Made by a program: the position numbers and the translations under genes
Assembly: GCA_021734075.1 (NCBI GenBank)
Contig: JAIPJW010000021.1
Coordinates: forward strand, 1-35,416
Origin: Cephaloticoccus sp.
GTDB lineage: Bacteria; Verrucomicrobiota; Verrucomicrobiia; Opitutales; Opitutaceae
Length of the DNA: 35,416 nucleotides
Direction: 5' to 3'
Shown here: positions 157 to 16,295 of the stretch, in pieces
Position numbering within the stretch: position 1 is the stretch's first letter
Layout: every line of letters starts with the position of its first letter
The notes under the pieces: generated by a model
The model's database searches: none
What the model was told of the DNA's origin: nothing
What the model saw: the letters and a program-made list of their open reading frames with translations, nothing else

Positions 157-1596
157 ATGAATGACGTGATCGAGCATCCTTTTATCAATGCCGTGCTGCC
201 TCATTTGCTGACGGTGGGCGGCTTCATGCTGGCCTTTTTCCTGATTGCCCGGCTTATGAGCGAAAAACGCCAGCCGGGAAACACGTTCGCCTGGCTGCTG
301 GGCATCGTGCTCATTCCCTACATCGGTGTGCCGCTGTATTTGCTGTTTGGCGGTCGCAAGCTGCGCAAACTGATGGCCAGGAAGAAAAATGTCTTCCCGA
401 CCCTGCCAGGGCCGGAAATCCTGCCCGCCGAGCATGCGCACCGGCCCATCGCGCAGGCGGTCACCGGGGCCGGGGGCTCCCCTCCCGTCGCCGGCAACCA
501 GGTGGAATTGCTGACCAATGGGGAGGAAACCTACCGCATCTGGGAGGAATCAATCTGCAACGCCGTCCACCACATCCACATCACCACCTTTATCCTCAGC
601 AGCGACGAAACCGGCAAACGCATCGTCAAGTTGCTCGCCCGGCGGGCCCGGGAAGGCGTCAAGGTCCGCCTCCTCTTGGATGCGGTCGGTTGCATGTTCA
701 TCAGCCGGAATTTCGTCGCCCCGATCAAAAAAGCCGGGGGTGAAGTGGAATGGTTCATGCCCGTGCTCCCCTTTACCTCACGCGGCTCGGCCAATCTGCG
801 CAATCACCGCAAGATCGCGATTTTCGATCATACCACTGCCATTGTCGGGGGGCACAATCTCGCTACCGAATACATGGGACCGGTGAAAAGGAAAAAACGC
901 TGGGCCGATTTTGGCGCCCGCATCCAGGGTCCGGCCGCCGCCCTGCTCAACGATGTGTTCATGGCCGACTGGTGTTTCGCGAGCCGGCAATCCGCCGAAA
1001 ATATTCGCGCCGAGATTCAGCCCGAAGCCTCGTGTCAGGCCCGCGGGAACGGCGAACTGCAGGTCATCGCAAGCGGACCGGACGTGAACGGTGACCCGTT
1101 ATACGAAGGTCTGCTGGCCATGGTCCAGGCGGCGGAAAAAAGCCTCATCATCATCACGCCCTATTTTATACCGGATGAGGTGCTGCTGCGCTCCTTGATC
1201 GTGAAGGTCCGGTCGGGTTGCGCCATCACCCTGGTGGTGCCCGCCAAGTCGAATCACCGCATCGCGGACTTTGCACGCAAACATTACCTGCGGGAATTGC
1301 GCCACGCCGGGGTGCAGGTGAAACTTTTCGGCCCGGGCATGATGCATTGCAAGGCCACCCTGGCGGATGGCCGGGTGGCATTTTTTGGCTCGGCCAATCT
1401 CGATCTGCGCAGCCTCTTTGTTAATTTCGAAATCGGGGTGATGGTCCACTCGGTTCCGGAAGTGCGTGCGATGACCGAATGGGCCGAAGGCTTGATCGCC
1501 CACTGCACCGACCACCATCCGGCCAAGCCACCACGCTTCAAGCTGCTGGGCGGGTTGGCCGAGGACTTGAGCCGACTGCTGGCACCACTCCTTTAG
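157..1596 (+). CDS. cls: Cardiolipin synthase (phospholipase D family)
   Basis: Joins two phosphatidylglycerol molecules (or PG with another lipid donor) into cardiolipin at the inner membrane. The 479-residue protein has the usual ClsA plan: two N-terminal membrane segments (about 13-33 and 43-64, the PLDc_N region) followed by two PLD catalytic repeats. Both HKD motifs are intact: HRKIAIFD (H217, K219, D224) and HCKATLAD (H397, K399, D404), each followed by the GGHN or GSAN signature. The ATG at 157 places the membrane segments correctly. It runs convergently into the TPR gene, and the two stop codons overlap by 4 bases. Length and motif set are normal, so the family assignment is secure; the exact lipid donor is not visible. 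Confidence 0.93.
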   Translation: MNDVIEHPFINAVLPHLLTVGGFMLAFFLIARLMSEKRQPGNTFAWLLGIVLIPYIGVPLYLLFGGRKLRKLMARKKNVFPTLPGPEILPAEHAHRPIAQAVTGAGGSPPVAGNQVELLTNGEETYRIWEESICNAVHHIHITTFILSSDETGKRIVKLLARRAREGVKVRLLLDAVGCMFISRNFVAPIKKAGGEVEWFMPVLPFTSRGSANLRNHRKIAIFDHTTAIVGGHNLATEYMGPVKRKKRWADFGARIQGPAAALLNDVFMADWCFASRQSAENIRAEIQPEASCQARGNGELQVIASGPDVNGDPLYEGLLAMVQAAEKSLIIITPYFIPDEVLLRSLIVKVRSGCAITLVVPAKSNHRIADFARKHYLRELRHAGVQVKLFGPGMMHCKATLADGRVAFFGSANLDLRSLFVNFEIGVMVHSVPEVRAMTEWAEGLIAHCTDHHPAKPPRFKLLGGLAEDLSRLLAPLL

Positions 1597-3653
1597 CCGC
1601 CCCGCAAATCACGCAACAGTTCCGCCCGATCCAGATTTTCCCGCGCCTCCGGATAATTCGGCCGAATCCGCAGGGCGGCCTGCAATTGCCCCACCGCGTC
1701 CGACCAGCGTTCCATGCGCATAAAGAGCACACCCAGGCCGTTGCGGGCTTCCGCGAAATTGGGCTGCAGACGGATCGCCGCGGAAAATTGATCCACCGCC
1801 TCGGGATAACGCTGCATGCGGGTCAAAAGCAACCCCAGGGTATAGCGCGCGATCATATTGTTGGAATCCAACTCAACGGCTTTCTGCAAGTGTTGAAAAG
1901 CGAGTTCCGTCCGACCCAGGTGAGCCAGTAGCGACCCCATCTCACTGTGGATGGCTGAGTCCTCCGGCGTCAAACGCACCACATGTTCATAGCGTTGCAA
2001 GGCCTCGTCATGCCGGCCGGCATAGACCAGCGCGCTGGCATAACTGTGCAGGGTGATCGGTTGATCGGGGGTGATTTCATCCGCCCTTTGATAATGAACC
2101 AAGGCTTCATCGATCCGGCCGATGCGCAGGAGGCTGTAGGCCAGACCGTAGTGTGCCAGCATGTAGTCCGACTTCAGCTGCACGGCCCGCTCGTAATGCG
2201 TCACGGCCCGGGCAAAGTCATCGATTTTGAAATACACGTTGCCCAGGTTGTATTCGGCTTCGGCATAGTCGGGCTGCACGACCAATGCCCGTTCATAGGT
2301 CGCCACCGCCTCCGCCATGCGATTTTCCTCCACATAGCAACTCGCCAGGTTCACGAGGGCCCGGGCGTTGTCCGGCACCTTTGCCGCGGTGTCGGCCCAG
2401 ATGGACAGTTTGGTGTGATAAGCGGTATTGCGCTTGGCCGTGCCGAATCCGGCCACGACCGCCACCAGGAAGACACCGGGCAGCACCCACCGGCCCCACC
2501 AGCGGTAGAGACCCAACCCCACCAGGATCACCACTCCGGCCAGCGGCAAATACATGCGATGCTCCGCGAGGGTCTGGGTGGTCAGTGGCACGAAGCTGGA
2601 ACTCGGCGCGAGAATCGAAAAGGCCGTGAAAGCAACAAAACCGATCACGGGCCGGCGCACCAGAGCGACCAGTGTCGCCGCCACCAACCCCAGCAGGATC
2701 ACCCCCTGCCACCATACTTCGCGCACGCTGGAGACGACATTTGCCCCGTAGTCCATCACCAGGGGATGGGGCCAAAGGGACAGGCGCAGATACAAAAGAA
2801 TCCCCCGACATTGGGTCAGGGCATAATCCCAGGCACTCATGCCCAGACCAAAGCCCACAATGCCTCCCCGCTTGTCGTTCGAAATCACGAGGAAGACCAG
2901 CAACACCCAGGTGGCGGCCAATCCCAGATAATACCTCCATCGTTCGCGCCATGCCGCTTTGAAGGATCCCGCCGCAAAGGTGCGGTCAAAGAGCAACACG
3001 ATCACGGGAGCAGTCGCCATGATCTCCTTGGCGGCCATGCCCGTCAGACAGGCAATCACACTCAGGCTTAGCCACCAGACAGGGCGGGTTGATTCCAGAC
3101 TGCGCACAAACGTGTAGAGCGTGAGCAGATAAAACAGGCCGCCCAATATTTCCGTGCGTTGGATCACACAAACCACCGATTCGGTCTGCAAGGGATGCAG
3201 GGTCCAGACGAGAGCGATGCCCAGGGCCAAGGGAAGAGCCGACGCGCCGTAAGTCTCGCGCAGGATCGGTCGGCCCAGGGTGCGACGCACCAGGCCAAAA
3301 AGCGCCAAACCCGCCAAGGCATGCAGCACCATATTGAAAAACCGGTAGCTGCGCACATCCAGCCCGCCGATCGCGTAGTTGAACGCCAGGGAAAGATTCA
3401 CAACCGGACGGCCCACTGCACCGGATGCCGTGGGCGGGGCCACGAGGGCATCCGTGAGCGGCCACAACCGCTGGATCGAGGTGTTCTGCACTATGCCTTT
3501 CAAATCATCAAAGACAAAGGGCGACGAAAGGCTGTTCGCATAGGCCAGCAGCACCCCGAGGATGATCACCAGGGCCGAGAGCTGAATCTGCCAACGGGAA
3601 ACATCCCGGGAATCCCGCGCACTCGTTTTACCCTTGGAGGTCGGCACCGGCAT
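1593..3653 (-). CDS. Polytopic membrane protein with C-terminal TPR repeats (TMTC/GT-C-like)
   Basis: A 686-residue protein in two halves. Residues about 22-410 are a series of hydrophobic helices resembling the GT-C/TMTC class of membrane glycosyltransferases. The first loop has an FVFDDLKGI acidic motif, followed by GRPVVNLSLAFNYAIGGLDV, both typical of bacterial TMTC-like proteins. Residues about 425-680 are at least seven tandem TPR units (recurring NLGNVYFKI..A..HYERAV pattern). This suggests a membrane sugar transferase with a protein-binding superhelix, but the donor and target are unknown. It is the last gene of the serA-plsY-hom-lysC-thrC run, only 3 bases after thrC, so it is probably co-transcribed; no metabolic link is evident. 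Fold assignment is fairly confident, function is not. Confidence 0.72.
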   Translation of the reverse strand: MPVPTSKGKTSARDSRDVSRWQIQLSALVIILGVLLAYANSLSSPFVFDDLKGIVQNTSIQRLWPLTDALVAPPTASGAVGRPVVNLSLAFNYAIGGLDVRSYRFFNMVLHALAGLALFGLVRRTLGRPILRETYGASALPLALGIALVWTLHPLQTESVVCVIQRTEILGGLFYLLTLYTFVRSLESTRPVWWLSLSVIACLTGMAAKEIMATAPVIVLLFDRTFAAGSFKAAWRERWRYYLGLAATWVLLVFLVISNDKRGGIVGFGLGMSAWDYALTQCRGILLYLRLSLWPHPLVMDYGANVVSSVREVWWQGVILLGLVAATLVALVRRPVIGFVAFTAFSILAPSSSFVPLTTQTLAEHRMYLPLAGVVILVGLGLYRWWGRWVLPGVFLVAVVAGFGTAKRNTAYHTKLSIWADTAAKVPDNARALVNLASCYVEENRMAEAVATYERALVVQPDYAEAEYNLGNVYFKIDDFARAVTHYERAVQLKSDYMLAHYGLAYSLLRIGRIDEALVHYQRADEITPDQPITLHSYASALVYAGRHDEALQRYEHVVRLTPEDSAIHSEMGSLLAHLGRTELAFQHLQKAVELDSNNMIARYTLGLLLTRMQRYPEAVDQFSAAIRLQPNFAEARNGLGVLFMRMERWSDAVGQLQAALRIRPNYPEARENLDRAELLRDLRGG

Positions 3654-12433: not shown

Positions 12434-12532
12434 ATCCAGCCATTAACTGTGCTTAGATTCGGCAGCATACGGGGTTAGGGATTGTTTCGCGCCCCGACGT
12501 GGGCACACTGCCGGGATATGCCAGACAGAACC

Positions 12533-13561
12533 ATGCGTGCCATTGCCAAGCTAAGCGCCGGACCCGGGCTACAAATGACGGAGGTGCCGGTGCCGAAACC
12601 CGGCATCAATGACGTCCTCATCAAGATCAAGCAGACCTCAATCTGTGGCACGGATGTCCATATCTACAATTGGGATTCATGGGCCGAAAAAACCATCAAG
12701 CCACCCATGGTGATCGGGCACGAGTTTGTCGGCACGATCGAGGAAGTCGGGGCCAATGTAATTGGCTACAAGCCGGGCGACCTGGTCGATGGCGAAGGCC
12801 ATATTGTTTGTGGCGTCTGTCGCAACTGTCTCGCCGGTCGCCGTCACCTCTGCAAGGACACCAAGGGGGTCGGTGTAAATCGCGACGGGGCATTTGCCGA
12901 GTATCTCTGCATCCCCGCCAGCAATGCCGTGCACGTGGACCCGGCCATCCCGCTCGACATCCTTTCCTGTTTCGACCCCCTCGGCAACGCCACCCATACC
13001 GCCTTGCAATATGATCTGGTGGGAGAAGACGTGCTCATCACGGGTGCGGGACCCATCGGTTGCATGGCGGTGGCCATTGCCAAGCACTGCGGCGCGCGCA
13101 AGATTGTCGTGACCGACGTAAATCCGGATCGCCTGGCTCTCGCCACCCGGATGGGCGCGACGCGCACCGTCGATGTAACCAAGGAAAAGTTGCCCGACGT
13201 GCAAAAGAGCATCGGCATGCGGGAGGGCTTTGATATCGGCCTGGAGATGTCGGGCAATCCCCAGGCCCTGAATGACATGATCGACAACATGGCCCACGGC
13301 GGTCGGATCGCCTTGCTCGGCATCATGCCGTCATCGGCGGCGGTCGACTGGAACAAGGTCGTTTTCAACATGCTTTCAATCAAGGGCATCTATGGCCGGG
13401 AAATGTATGAAACCTGGTATAAGATGACCTCGATGATCCAGAGTGGTCTCGATATCTCGCCCGTGATCACCCACCGCTTTCATTTCACCGAATTCCAGGA
13501 AGCCTTCGACCTGATGCGTTCCGGCAAAAGCGGGAAAATCGTCCTCAAGTGGGACAACTGA
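12533..13561 (+). CDS. tdh: L-threonine 3-dehydrogenase
   Basis: Zinc medium-chain dehydrogenase oxidising threonine to 2-amino-3-ketobutyrate with NAD+. The start at 12533 ([10 protein letters not shown]) gives 342 residues, almost exactly the length of E. coli Tdh (341) and with the same N-terminus; the in-frame TTG at 12482 and ATG at 12518 would add non-family residues. Seen: catalytic zinc Cys in [13 protein letters not shown], structural-zinc [19 protein letters not shown], Rossmann [20 protein letters not shown] and [14 protein letters not shown]. The product is the substrate of Kbl, encoded 1.5 kb downstream on the same strand; the usual adjacency is broken by the SatD-like pair on the other strand. 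Confidence 0.96.
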
Positions 13562-13581: not shown

Positions 13582-14325
13582 TTAGAGGATATATTTGACC
13601 AGCACGCCCAAGCCCATCGCCAAACCCGACGAAAGCAACGTGCCGATCAAAACGTATTCGGCAAAACCGCGGTCCTCCATTTCCTTGAAACGGGTGAACC
13701 CTTTCGCCGCCAAGGTGAATCCGATCGCGCCGAACTGTCCGCTCAACACGAAGGAATAGATCAGGATTCGTTCGAGCAGCCCGATCACCCGGCCCCGGTT
13801 GTATTCGCCGCGATCCAGTGACTTGGGCGTGGACGGACTTTGATTAGGTTTGAGTTGCAAGCCGCCGAGCACGGCCCGGATGGCCAGGTTCGCTTCATTG
13901 GCCGCCAGCAACATGCCAAAACTGATAGTCAGGATGCGCAGATCAAACAAGCCGGTGATCACCGCACCCATCGTGCTCCATGCCGCCAGGCTTTGCGCCA
14001 TCTCCAGTAATTCCGGGCGAAACATCACCCCGGCGGCCGAAGAAAAGCAGATGCTCAGTCCCACCAGCTGCCCCAACCCGATGATCAGGTGCCCGACATT
14101 GCGATCACTCCGTCGCCGGTCCCACAGGCCGCCGGCAAGGTTCATCAACAGCACGATCACGGCCGCCAACCACAGAAATTTCTGCGGGACAAAAAGCATC
14201 AGTCCCAGCAACTCAGCCGCCGTCTTCAATCCCCATGCCTTTGCCCTGGAGGGGGCGTCGGAAAGCAACAACCCCAGGCGCAGAAGCAAAACCAGATTGG
14301 CGTAGAATAGAAATTCAGCGTTCAT
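13582..14325 (-). CDS. Polytopic membrane protein paired with a SatD-like protein
   Basis: 247 residues with about six predicted membrane segments (roughly 5-22, 35-66, 77-102, 113-142, 183-204, 223-246). The most conserved-looking part is the C-terminal third: DRGEYNRGRVIGLLERILIY, then GQFGAIGFTLAAKGFTRFKE and EYVLIGTLLS. I recall this signature from the C-terminus of DUF3307-type proteins that accompany SatD proteins in other phyla; the N-terminus here is not one I recognise as canonical DUF3307. It begins 11 bases inside the satD-like gene, so the two are translationally coupled and probably act together. Function unknown. It converges on tdh 20 bases away. Confidence 0.7.
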   Translation of the reverse strand: MNAEFLFYANLVLLLRLGLLLSDAPSRAKAWGLKTAAELLGLMLFVPQKFLWLAAVIVLLMNLAGGLWDRRRSDRNVGHLIIGLGQLVGLSICFSSAAGVMFRPELLEMAQSLAAWSTMGAVITGLFDLRILTISFGMLLAANEANLAIRAVLGGLQLKPNQSPSTPKSLDRGEYNRGRVIGLLERILIYSFVLSGQFGAIGFTLAAKGFTRFKEMEDRGFAEYVLIGTLLSSGLAMGLGVLVKYIL

Positions 14326-14950
14326 CCTTCAAAGTTGCGTTAAGATTAATCGTCAGTTGTTGGCAGATCCCGACCAGATCGTCGAGGGCGGCAGCCCGGA
14401 TGTTCTTATACACCGCCACGGTTGAAACTGACAAACCCTGTTCGATTTCCCGGACCTTTTTGCCCTGCAGCAACCCGCCCAGCACGAGGAGCCGGTTGCG
14501 TTCCCACCCGTCAATCTGGTGGGAAACCAGATTCAACACATGCCGGCTCAGGCGCCATTCGTCGCCAGCAGGTTCACCGGCGATCCGCAGCAAACGGCCG
14601 TCTTCCTTCAATTCCGACAACGCCGCGCGCGCACAATGAAAAGCAGGCCCGTCCATGCCCAAAGCCTGCTTCCGATTGACCGGCGTGGCCAGCGCACCGA
14701 CGCCCAAGGCAAACCGCACCTGCACCGGATGAATGGCCGCCATGATCGCCACCATATCCGCCCACAATGAGTCCGCCCGACGGTAAACCGCCTGAAACTC
14801 ATCTCCCAGCGTCAAGGTGTAGGGCGACGCCAGATCCTTCGCCTGTGCGTTCACCTGCTTGAGGGCCGTTTCCAACTTTTTTTGCAGCGCCTCGCGATGC
14901 GGCAACGTCTTTGAGGCCACCAAGTCTGCAATCAATGCAATTACTTTCAT
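14315..14950 (-). CDS. SatD-like protein with C-terminal helix-turn-helix
   Basis: 211 residues. The N-terminal domain (1-115) matches the SatD family pattern: IADLVASK with D9, LTLGDEFQAVY with D50-E51, VRFALGVGAL (R79, G83, G85), then MDGPAFHCARAAL (D100, R108). Known: SatD was named from a streptococcal secretion and acid-tolerance locus and its biochemistry is not established. Inference: the order of motifs parallels class III nucleotide cyclases (FaDi, GDgF, RxGihtG, G..Vn.AaRL). Residues 160-195 form a helix-turn-helix (QGKKVREIEQGLSVSTVAVYK) like sigma region 4 or Fis-type DNA binders. First gene of a two-gene operon with the membrane protein; an AT-rich region with dyads precedes it. 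Confidence 0.75.
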   Translation of the reverse strand: MKVIALIADLVASKTLPHREALQKKLETALKQVNAQAKDLASPYTLTLGDEFQAVYRRADSLWADMVAIMAAIHPVQVRFALGVGALATPVNRKQALGMDGPAFHCARAALSELKEDGRLLRIAGEPAGDEWRLSRHVLNLVSHQIDGWERNRLLVLGGLLQGKKVREIEQGLSVSTVAVYKNIRAAALDDLVGICQQLTINLNATLKDER

Positions 14951-14961
14951 AAAGGCACGAA

Positions 14962-15027
14962 TTAACCTAATTAGTTAAATATTCAAGTTTTTAACCATAT
15001 TAGTTTATTTATAAGTTAATTAACCTT
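14962..15027. promoter_or_regulatory. AT-rich divergent control region with repeated near-palindromes
   Basis: Between the satD-like gene and kbl, 14951-15040 is only 22% G+C by my count. It holds two direct copies of a 17-base near-palindrome, TTAACCTAATTAGTTAA (14962-14978) and TTAACCATATTAGTTTA (14991-15007), identical at 14 of 17 positions and spaced 29 bases start to start. A further perfect palindrome GTTAATTAAC lies at 15015-15024. Such spacing suggests binding sites for a dimeric regulator; the helix-turn-helix of the adjacent SatD-like protein is one candidate. Confidence 0.45.
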
Positions 15028-15032
15028 TTTGG

Positions 15033-15038
15033 TATAAT
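15033..15038 (+). promoter_or_regulatory. Candidate -10 element for kbl-cdd
   Basis: A perfect TATAAT lies 66 bases before the kbl ATG. No good -35 box is visible at the usual spacing; the GTTAATTAAC palindrome (15015-15024) occupies that region, as an operator or activator site might. Confidence 0.4.
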
Positions 15039-15104: not shown

Positions 15105-16295
15105 ATGACATCCGCCTATCAAGCCCATTTGGATAAAACGCTGGCCGAAATCGAGGCCGCCGGACTCTACAAGCGCGAGCGTATCATCACCACGCACCAA
15201 ACGGCGCACATCAGTGTGACCGGGGGGCAGCAGGTGTTGAACATGTGCGCCAATAACTATCTGGGACTGGCGGATAACGCGGAACTGATTGCCGCGGCCC
15301 GCGACGCGCTCGACCGCTGGGGCTACGGTCTGGCGTCCGTGCGTTTCATCTGCGGCACGCAACAACTGCACAAGGATCTGGAGGCCGCCATTTCCAAGTT
15401 CCTCGGCACCGAGGACACCATTCTCTACACCTCTTGTTTTGATGCCAACGGCGGGCTCTTCGAAACGTTGCTGGGTGCCGAGGATGCGGTGATTTCGGAC
15501 GAACTCAATCATGCCTCGATCATCGACGGCGTGCGACTTTGCAAGGCCCAGCGGTATCGCTACAAGAACAGCAATCTCGAGGACCTTGAAGCGAAATTGA
15601 AGGAGGCCGACGCCAACCAGGCCCGCTTCAAGCTCATCGCCACCGACGGGGTCTTTTCCATGGATGGTTTCATCGCGAACCTTGAGGGCATTTGCGATCT
15701 AGCCGATCGCTACGGGGCCCTGGTCATGGTGGACGACAGTCACGCCGTCGGTTTCATGGGCAAGACCGGTCGCGGGACCCATGAGCACTGCGGCGTGATG
15801 GATCGGGTGGATATCATCACCGGCACGCTCGGCAAGGCCCTGGGCGGGGCCAGCGGTGGCTACACCAGTGGACGCAAGTCGATCATTGATCTGCTGCGGC
15901 AACGCTCCCGACCCTATTTATTTTCCAACACGGTGGCCCCGACGATCGCCGCCGCCTCCATCAAGTGCCTGGAAATGCTCAGTCGCTCCACGGCGTTGCG
16001 GGACAAATTGGAGGAGAACACCAGGTTCTTCCGCGCCGGCCTGACGCAGGCCGGTTTGACAATCAAGCCGGGCACCCACCCCATCGTGCCCGTGATGCTC
16101 GGGGATGCCGCGCTGTCTCAGAAATTTGCTACGCGCATGCTGGAGAAAGGCGTCTACGTGGTCGGCTTCTTTTATCCGGTCGTTCCCCAAGGCACGGCGC
16201 GCATTCGCACCCAGGTCTCCGCCGCCCACAGCAAGGAGGATCTCGTCTTTGCGATTGAGAAGTTCGCGGAAGTAAAACAGGAACTGGGACTCTGA
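15105..16295 (+). CDS. kbl: Glycine C-acetyltransferase (2-amino-3-ketobutyrate CoA ligase)
   Basis: PLP enzyme of the alpha-oxoamine synthase family that splits 2-amino-3-ketobutyrate with CoA into glycine and acetyl-CoA, completing threonine breakdown begun by Tdh. 396 residues, close to E. coli Kbl (398). Seen: [49 protein letters not shown], the PLP-binding [11 protein letters not shown] and the Schiff-base lysine K244 in [14 protein letters not shown]. The strong partnership with tdh 1.5 kb upstream favours Kbl over BioF or HemA. The TGA stop overlaps the ATG of cdd by one base (TGATG), so the two are coupled. Confidence 0.95.

Follow-up and report, generated by a model that had tools for sequence, protein, structure and literature searches.

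The window, a stretch of 35,416 nucleotides from Cephaloticoccus sp., carries a two-gene cassette consisting of satD and a gene for a membrane protein, both on the reverse strand. The cassette is flanked by two forward-strand genes which, from their sequences, we take to be kbl and tdh (Table 1). The list of open reading frames confirmed the extents of both cassette genes given in the earlier note, as well as their overlap of 11 bases (14315–14325 in ORF coordinates). Gene overlap is a habit of the SatD family. Among the 136 loci containing both genes, the commonest gap was −4 (35 loci), followed by −11, +2, and −8 (8 loci each), with the first ATG, GTG, or TTG taken as the start. Between satD and kbl lie three tandem palindromes, regarded here as putative operators.

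Table 1. Coordinates of the satD cassette, its flanking genes, and the putative operators within the window
Feature	Position	Strand	Description	Basis
satD CDS	14315..14950	−	211 aa	ORF; Pfam PF16264, E=1.6e-26
SatD palm domain	14567..14950	−	residues 1–128	AlphaFold2 model, Foldseek/VIA, conservation
Metal-site Asp codons	D9 14924–14926; D50 14801–14803	−		conservation, alignment to cyclases
SatD helix-turn-helix region	14327..14500	−	residues 151–208	model helices, HTH profile matches, operator co-variation
SatD recognition helix	14393–14422	−	residues 177–186; V178 at 14417–14419	
Membrane partner CDS	13582..14325	−	247 aa	ORF, partner profile, model (pLDDT 94.3)
Conserved C-terminal module of membrane partner	13585..13812	−	about residues 172–247	alignments A2, A5
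kbl (glycine C-acetyltransferase-like)	15105..16295	+	divergent neighbour of satD	ORF, synteny
tdh (threonine 3-dehydrogenase-like)	12482..13561	+	other flank of the satD cassette	ORF, synteny
Operator 1	14964..14976		AACCTAATTAGTT; nearest to the satD start	pattern statistics
Operator 2	14993..15005		AACCATATTAGTT; 29 bp from operator 1	
Operator 3	15022..15034		AACCTTTTTGGTA; degenerate; 29 bp from operator 2	looser pattern

The protein encoded by satD belongs to the SatD family (PF16264; 93.7 bits at a cut-off of 29). Its AlphaFold2 model, for which an alignment of 135 SatD proteins was the input, had a pLDDT of 96.5 and a pTM of 0.92. The model contained a beta-alpha-beta-beta-alpha-beta palm (residues 1–128) followed by helices, including those of a helix-turn-helix (151–161, 166–173, and 177–186). 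The top PDB matches in a Foldseek search were class III cyclases (5nby, E=3.3e-5; 1ybt/1ybu, 8.1e-5), and GGDEF domains, GTP cyclohydrolase III, and the PucR-type structures 3onq and 9f80 were found further down the list. Superposition with VIA-align gave Z scores of 10.4 for GTP cyclohydrolase III, 10.0 for Cas10, 9.6 for a bacterial adenylyl cyclase, and 9.1 for the mCpol protein of Panoptes. The cyclase-like palm proposed in the earlier note was thus recovered by the fold search, with class III cyclases on top and the palms of GGDEF, Cas10, and mCpol proteins also aligning. The helix-turn-helix placed behind it was borne out both by the model helices and by matches to the HTH_23 profile in 69 of the 135 family members at E≤10 (best 5.3e-7). 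Judging by the model, SatD appears to combine a palm of the class III nucleotidyl-cyclase type with a helix-turn-helix.

At the level of sequence, the likeness of SatD to class III cyclases appeared weak, yet in register. A PDB sequence search with the single protein gave nothing at E≤1. Since the full SatD profile drew mainly helix-turn-helix proteins, a palm-only profile was used. The top 5 of its 14 PDB matches were class III cyclase chains (E 0.027–0.26), which stem from just two proteins: Rv1900c and Ma1120, the latter in four versions. When the palm was aligned in hhalign with 27 class III cyclases from the phylum of the window, the score was 22.3 and the probability 17% (30.8 and 49% with the settings native to the tool). 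None of 50 column-shuffled controls scored above 8.4, and the reversed alignment scored 4.8.

All the SatD residues named earlier were found at the positions given for them. Of the 135 homologues, D9 was kept in 133, D50 in all, and E51 in 129. Both the fold and the near-invariance of the two aspartates thus agree with the earlier reading, which another fold or poor conservation would have refuted. Other palm residues were also widely kept: S13 in 134, G49 in 135, Q53 in 133, R79 in 124, G85 in 132, D100 in 113, G101 in 135, and R108 in 123 proteins. D9 and D50 align with D12 and D56 of the class III cyclases in alignment A7, and the pair of metal-binding aspartates is therefore present at the sequence level. 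Position 105, corresponding to the transition-state Asn of cyclases, is occupied by His (68 of 135), Tyr (40), or Thr (13), and R108 is one residue nearer than the Arg of the VNxAaR motif, so that the Asn/Arg pair of class III enzymes is not reproduced. The base-specifying Lys before the GD motif is also absent: Lys52 of A7 aligns with Leu46 of SatD, and the majority residue at this position is Ile. PF00211 did not match the window protein at E≤10, the SatD family being the only one found (HMMER filters drop most matches above 0.1). Of the proposed parallel with class III cyclases (PF00211, PycC), the palm fold, both metal aspartates, and the order and register of the motifs stood; unlike these enzymes, SatD has His or Tyr in place of the Asn, a different Arg spacing, no base-specifying Lys, and a fused helix-turn-helix. 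It is the metal-site acids that appear conserved in the alignment, whereas the parts serving substrate choice and transition-state stabilization differ. Because the base-specifying Lys is absent, we do not call SatD a class III cyclase, and describe it, on the basis of the model, as built on a cyclase-type scaffold.

Tandem palindromes AACC-N5-GGTT with a period of 28–29 bp were found upstream of satD. The pattern AACY-N5-RGTT had 174 matches in 154 satD upstream regions, against 2.5 expected from dinucleotide shuffles; 74 regions contained at least one match and 58 at least two, the spacing being mostly 28 or 29 bp. When all 4-bp palindromes were counted with no prior choice, AACC-N5-GGTT ranked first, with 91 occurrences in the 90 regions of group A and a maximum of 8 in 20 mononucleotide shuffles. 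A motif-free repeat scan identified a lag of 28/29 as the best one in about 68 of the 90 group A regions and in 16 of the 19 regions of group B, in which the partner is short. Group B has different palindromes (TTTCA-N7-TGAAA, TGTGCA-N7-TGCACA, and relatives) with the same 29-bp period; these types were seen before satD at loci L142–L157, L005, L006, and L008. For the Bacillota-type group, in which the partners are mostly of the DUF3307 kind, 45 regions were examined; no palindrome exceeded the shuffles (6 versus a maximum of 6), and the lag of 28–29 bp was in weak excess (11 of 45). Since this group has no clear operator, the operator claim is restricted to groups A and B. The best 80 of 493 relatives were taken for the relatives scan, which favours group A.

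In the 58 regions with at least two sites, the sequence TTGA, resembling a −35 element, occurs 19 times at a distance of 10 or 11 bases ahead of the last site, and in some loci (L035, L049) the last operator ends just before the satD start codon; this placement suggests repression. In the window, TATAAT at 15033–15038 overlaps operator 3, faces kbl, and may act as a promoter element for this gene. A sigma-70 scan of the satD–kbl region of the window found no full promoter. With a candidate DNA target at hand, the earlier idea of a regulator with its own helix-turn-helix has support beyond the evidence on which it had been put forward.

The base preceding AACC varies among loci and may be T, A, C, or G. 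Across 68 loci, its mutual information with residue 178 of SatD, the second position of the recognition helix (Val in the window), corresponded to z=14.7; the next SatD column had z=5.6, and the maximum in 1000 permutations, which ignore kinship, was 7.9. Arg178 was accompanied by G in 42 of 42 half-sites from 10 loci, including records titled Verrucomicrobia, Halospina, Melioribacteraceae, and Spirochaetales, while G was found in 5 of 260 half-sites of proteins with other residues. T is the usual flank of proteins with Val or Pro at this position, which account for 16 of 17 T loci, yet also for 5 of 14 A loci; Lys goes with C, and Gln with A or C. Left out of this comparison were the duplicates L128, L133, L136, L138, and L094, the fragment L073, which has no residue 178, and loci L118 and L122 with one distant match each. 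The last two have Ala178 with a G flank, counter to the exclusive pairing of Arg and G, and counting them raises G without Arg to 9 of 264 half-sites. The rule fitted 37 of 40 half-sites in 18 held-out loci; it was coded after the held-out list was known, these loci are related to others, and Gln allows two bases.

Co-variation is inflated by relatedness. On the 41 loci scorable for both proteins, z was 7.3 for residue 178 and 6.1 for the highest-scoring position in the membrane partner. Among protein pairs at least 50% identical, residue 178 differed in 33% of the 43 pairs with different bases versus 0% of the 49 pairs with the same base, and Q77 showed an equal contrast (88% versus 55%). The pairing of Arg with G in distant lineages is the support on which we rely most in proposing that SatD reads the operator. 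As far as sequences can tell, SatD very probably regulates its own operon: the array before its gene co-varies with its own recognition helix.

The membrane partner in the window had no match to any Pfam family at E≤1, DUF3307 (PF11750) included. Its model was all-helical save for one or two bridge residues. A fold search against the PDB gave no match at E≤0.001, and VIA Z scores of up to 7.2 were in the range of common helical arrangements. An ORF matching the partner profile was present in 136 of the 155 SatD loci, always on the same strand as satD; the profile was used at E≤0.1, and a few weak matches may be false, and the 155 loci include duplicate places (e.g., L094 = L070, L128 = L022, L138 = L028). 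The distance from satD to the start of a following partner is between −100 and 300 bases in 126 of the 136 loci, and six of the other 10 have the partner ahead of satD. The partner is missing in 19 loci, eight of which end within 750 bases of satD; the other 11 do not and represent 10 distinct places, each with at least 1.1 kb of DNA after satD. The earlier description of SatD as membrane-linked holds genetically, at the level of gene pairing only.

The C-terminal module is the constant part of the partner, common to long, short, and DUF3307-type proteins. G178, G182, E185, R186, and G228 were invariant in 76 proteins, and K208, R212, E223, and Y224 were present in at least 90% of them. The N-terminal half is represented by DUF3307 in one class, is different in the class to which the window protein belongs, and is missing in the class of 112–122 aa. 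DUF3307 matched the N-terminal half of the partners in L007, L010, L011, L085, L087, and L091, and no Pfam model scored above the cut-off over the C-terminal module in the 12 partners scanned. The DUF3307 half of the L011 partner (648–1379, reverse strand) also matched phrog_2470 (E=4e-13), a phage family annotated as membrane protein in the moron/host takeover class.

In the window's family, five genomes have the cassette at the same conserved position. Two of the 22 kbl loci read in this family (30 were returned) carry SatD and operators, and operators were present only where SatD is. Among the 20 SatD-less loci, 19 showed no operator within 300 bp; in the remaining one, L226, no DNA precedes kbl. 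In 14 of these loci, tdh is on the strand of kbl and stops 3–137 bases short of it (449 bases in one more), and four had no tdh match. The cassette therefore sits in reverse orientation inside a tdh–kbl operon and has been gained or lost among relatives. In L220, a membrane gene (2756–3595) is located between tdh and kbl; it is intact and stands without SatD and without operators, and some residues of its conserved module seem to differ, R212 reading as Asn.

We considered kbl as a regulated target, since the array separates it from satD and operator 3 shares bases with the TATAAT directed at it, but kbl adjoins satD in only 5 of 91 loci tested, all from the window's family by title or kinship, and control of kbl could therefore only be local. 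In the window's lineage, SatD may control kbl too. In 17 genomes, the 29-bp tandem pattern (up to 2 mismatches) had 49 forward matches compared with 20 in the reversed control. Of these, 24 were at satD, including all four perfect ones, and the 25 matches elsewhere, not clearly above the 20 of the control, revealed no larger regulon by this pattern. In L009, SatD (1396–2058, reverse strand) has a degraded palm without the metal motif and retains the helix-turn-helix, Arg178, and G-flanked operators, and the membrane neighbour is outside the partner profile. The loss of the palm and the usual partner with retention of the helix-turn-helix and operators fits a split of roles. A phage origin of SatD received no support: none of 71 candidate stretches in viral contigs was confirmed, the phage records searched contained no match to a SatD relative, and neither protein of the window pair matched PHROGs at E≤1.

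Genes for PycTM (PF18967) adjoin satD on the same strand in four of the 155 loci. In L070, PycTM (957–1532) stands where the usual partner would be, 64 bp downstream of satD; it scored 32.9 bits in Pfam (cut-off 27.2) and 4.2e-31 for the 2TM effector of PADLOC, and two CAACT-N5-GGTAG palindromes were read by eye upstream of this satD. In the remaining loci PycTM directly precedes satD: L028 (4456–4980, gap of 14 bp, 63.2 bits), L091 (4459–5001, −1 bp, 36.3 bits), and L092 (951–1478, 19 bp, 28.5 bits). PycTM is an addition in these three loci since they also carry the usual partner, split over two ORFs in L028. In none of them did AACY-N5-RGTT occur ahead of satD or in the 200 bp preceding PycTM. 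Because L091 and L092 are close relatives, the links to PycTM amount to about three independent cases. The profile for the all-ORF PycTM search was built from these four proteins.

According to the available text of the respective papers, the cyclase of Pycsar works with PycTM, a membrane-disrupting protein (PMC11224242), and Panoptes joins the mCpol palm to a 2TM effector (PMC12657218). In both, as with SatD, a small palm protein shares a two-gene operon with a membrane protein, and PycTM beside SatD in four loci is a feature shared with Pycsar. Unlike them, SatD has a helix-turn-helix and operators, and PADLOC, which gave no match for SatD or its usual partner, does not recognize the latter as a known 2TM effector; the window partner had no match in Pfam or PADLOC at E≤1. 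The combination of a cyclase with PycTM or PycTIR that defines Pycsar was not found in the window pair. By analogy with these systems, a nucleotide signal between SatD and the membrane protein is plausible.

With moderate confidence, we propose that SatD is a one-component self-regulating switch with a likely nucleotide site in its palm and a membrane protein as its probable output. Its C-terminal helix-turn-helix would bind at least two phased AACC-N5-GGTT palindromes (28–29 bp) before its own operon, and this binding would determine how much SatD, and how much of the co-translated membrane protein, is made. Most probably the promoter of the operon is thus kept under the control of SatD itself, presumably through repression rather than activation. 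The palm would most likely bind a metal–nucleotide complex and may turn it over, and the nucleotide state, together with a presumed contact with the C-terminal module of the partner, would change DNA binding. The partner would either receive SatD, as SdpI does SdpR, or be the output; a limited search having turned up no larger regulon, the membrane protein itself is the more probable output. The fold class, residue conservation, operator array, co-variation at residue 178, and gene pairing were obtained by computation; repression, nucleotide binding, contact with the membrane protein, and the stimulus of the switch are inferred.

Several other readings of the same data were weighed. SatD could be part of a Pycsar-like system in which the palm is an active cyclase, the partner or PycTM is a nucleotide-gated effector, and the helix-turn-helix only keeps expression low. 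The near-invariant metal aspartates agree with this, as do the PycTM genes next to satD, one of which replaces the usual partner in L070, and the L009 locus, where operators persist beside a degraded palm and an unrelated-by-profile membrane neighbour. We nevertheless find it rather unlikely, since the class III base-specifying Lys and transition-state Asn are absent, PADLOC recognizes neither SatD nor the usual partner, and PycTM occurs in just 4 of 155 loci, two of them closely related, being extra to the usual partner in three loci devoid of AACY-N5-RGTT operators. Moreover, most defence genes do not sit in one conserved place, whereas the cassette does so in the five genomes of the window's family. 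The layout of an autorepressor and a membrane protein in one operon is shared with SdpR/SdpI of Bacillus subtilis, as described in the available text of PMC1626106, and SatD could likewise be an autorepressor sequestered by a membrane receptor, its palm serving only as a protein–protein or ligand-binding domain. The constancy of the partner's C-terminal module beside a variable N-terminal half (DUF3307, other, or absent) is in line with such a role, but the near-invariance of D9, D50, and E51 would be left unexplained, and we hold this possibility to be just as unlikely. To our knowledge, SdpR has no cyclase palm.

The palm could also be an inactive cyclase fold that serves for ligand binding or dimerization beside the helix-turn-helix, as in PucR/CdaR-type regulators, which share with the SatD model a palm-like domain next to a helix-turn-helix. 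The structures 3onq and 9f80 matched SatD in Foldseek with E of 7e-4 to 3e-3 and poor superposition (rmsd about 15), and MabR, in the available text of PMC11617747, has a GGDEF-like fold without catalytic motifs beside its helix-turn-helix. This explanation is improbable given that SatD keeps the metal-site acids that MabR, in the same text, lacks, has a regular membrane partner, and gave no match at E≤1 to the PucR families of Pfam (PF17853 and PF13556). That the operator array belongs to another, unlinked regulator, with SatD as a bystander, is most improbable. Every region was chosen because of SatD, the operators are putative, and part of the co-variation reflects relatedness, but residue 178 tracks the flanking base across several phyla, operators are absent without SatD in the kbl loci, and the site sequence changes with the type of helix-turn-helix while the 29-bp period stays. 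Beyond the proposed switch, it is conceivable, if doubtful, that SatD is both an enzyme and a repressor, which makes a nucleotide signal, senses it via the same palm, and releases the array if the pool is disturbed. If so, the membrane effector would be made or opened upon array release, and SatD would be a self-guarding nucleotide alarm uniting one-component control with membrane signalling of the Pycsar/Panoptes type.

The name SatD refers to secretion and acid tolerance in Streptococcus mutans (available text of PMC10326533 and PMC12077213). No study of SatD biochemistry was found in the literature searched by title and abstract, and "SatD" as a whole word had unrelated uses among the matches listed; there is hardly any coverage of the family in the literature searched. 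New here are the predicted fold of SatD, the candidate operator code, and the partner module. The fold, the likely metal–nucleotide site, the one-residue DNA code, and the partner module lacking a Pfam family make the SatD family directly testable. SatD would be a rare case in which a nucleotidyl-cyclase palm whose metal site is intact is linked to the direct control of a promoter, and the PycTM genes beside it hint at a possible branch of signalling by cyclic nucleotides.

Eight other genomes of the same genus lacked SatD, three of them being less than 90% complete, and among the 57 relatives of the window's genome, this genome counted, SatD was found in four. It is rare in the window's phylum (10 of 387 genomes) and in the phylum of the L070 genome (6 of 350). 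SatD genes were present in 63 of 348 genomes of the phylum to which the L085 genome belongs and in 74 of 345 genomes of the phylum of the L022 genome.
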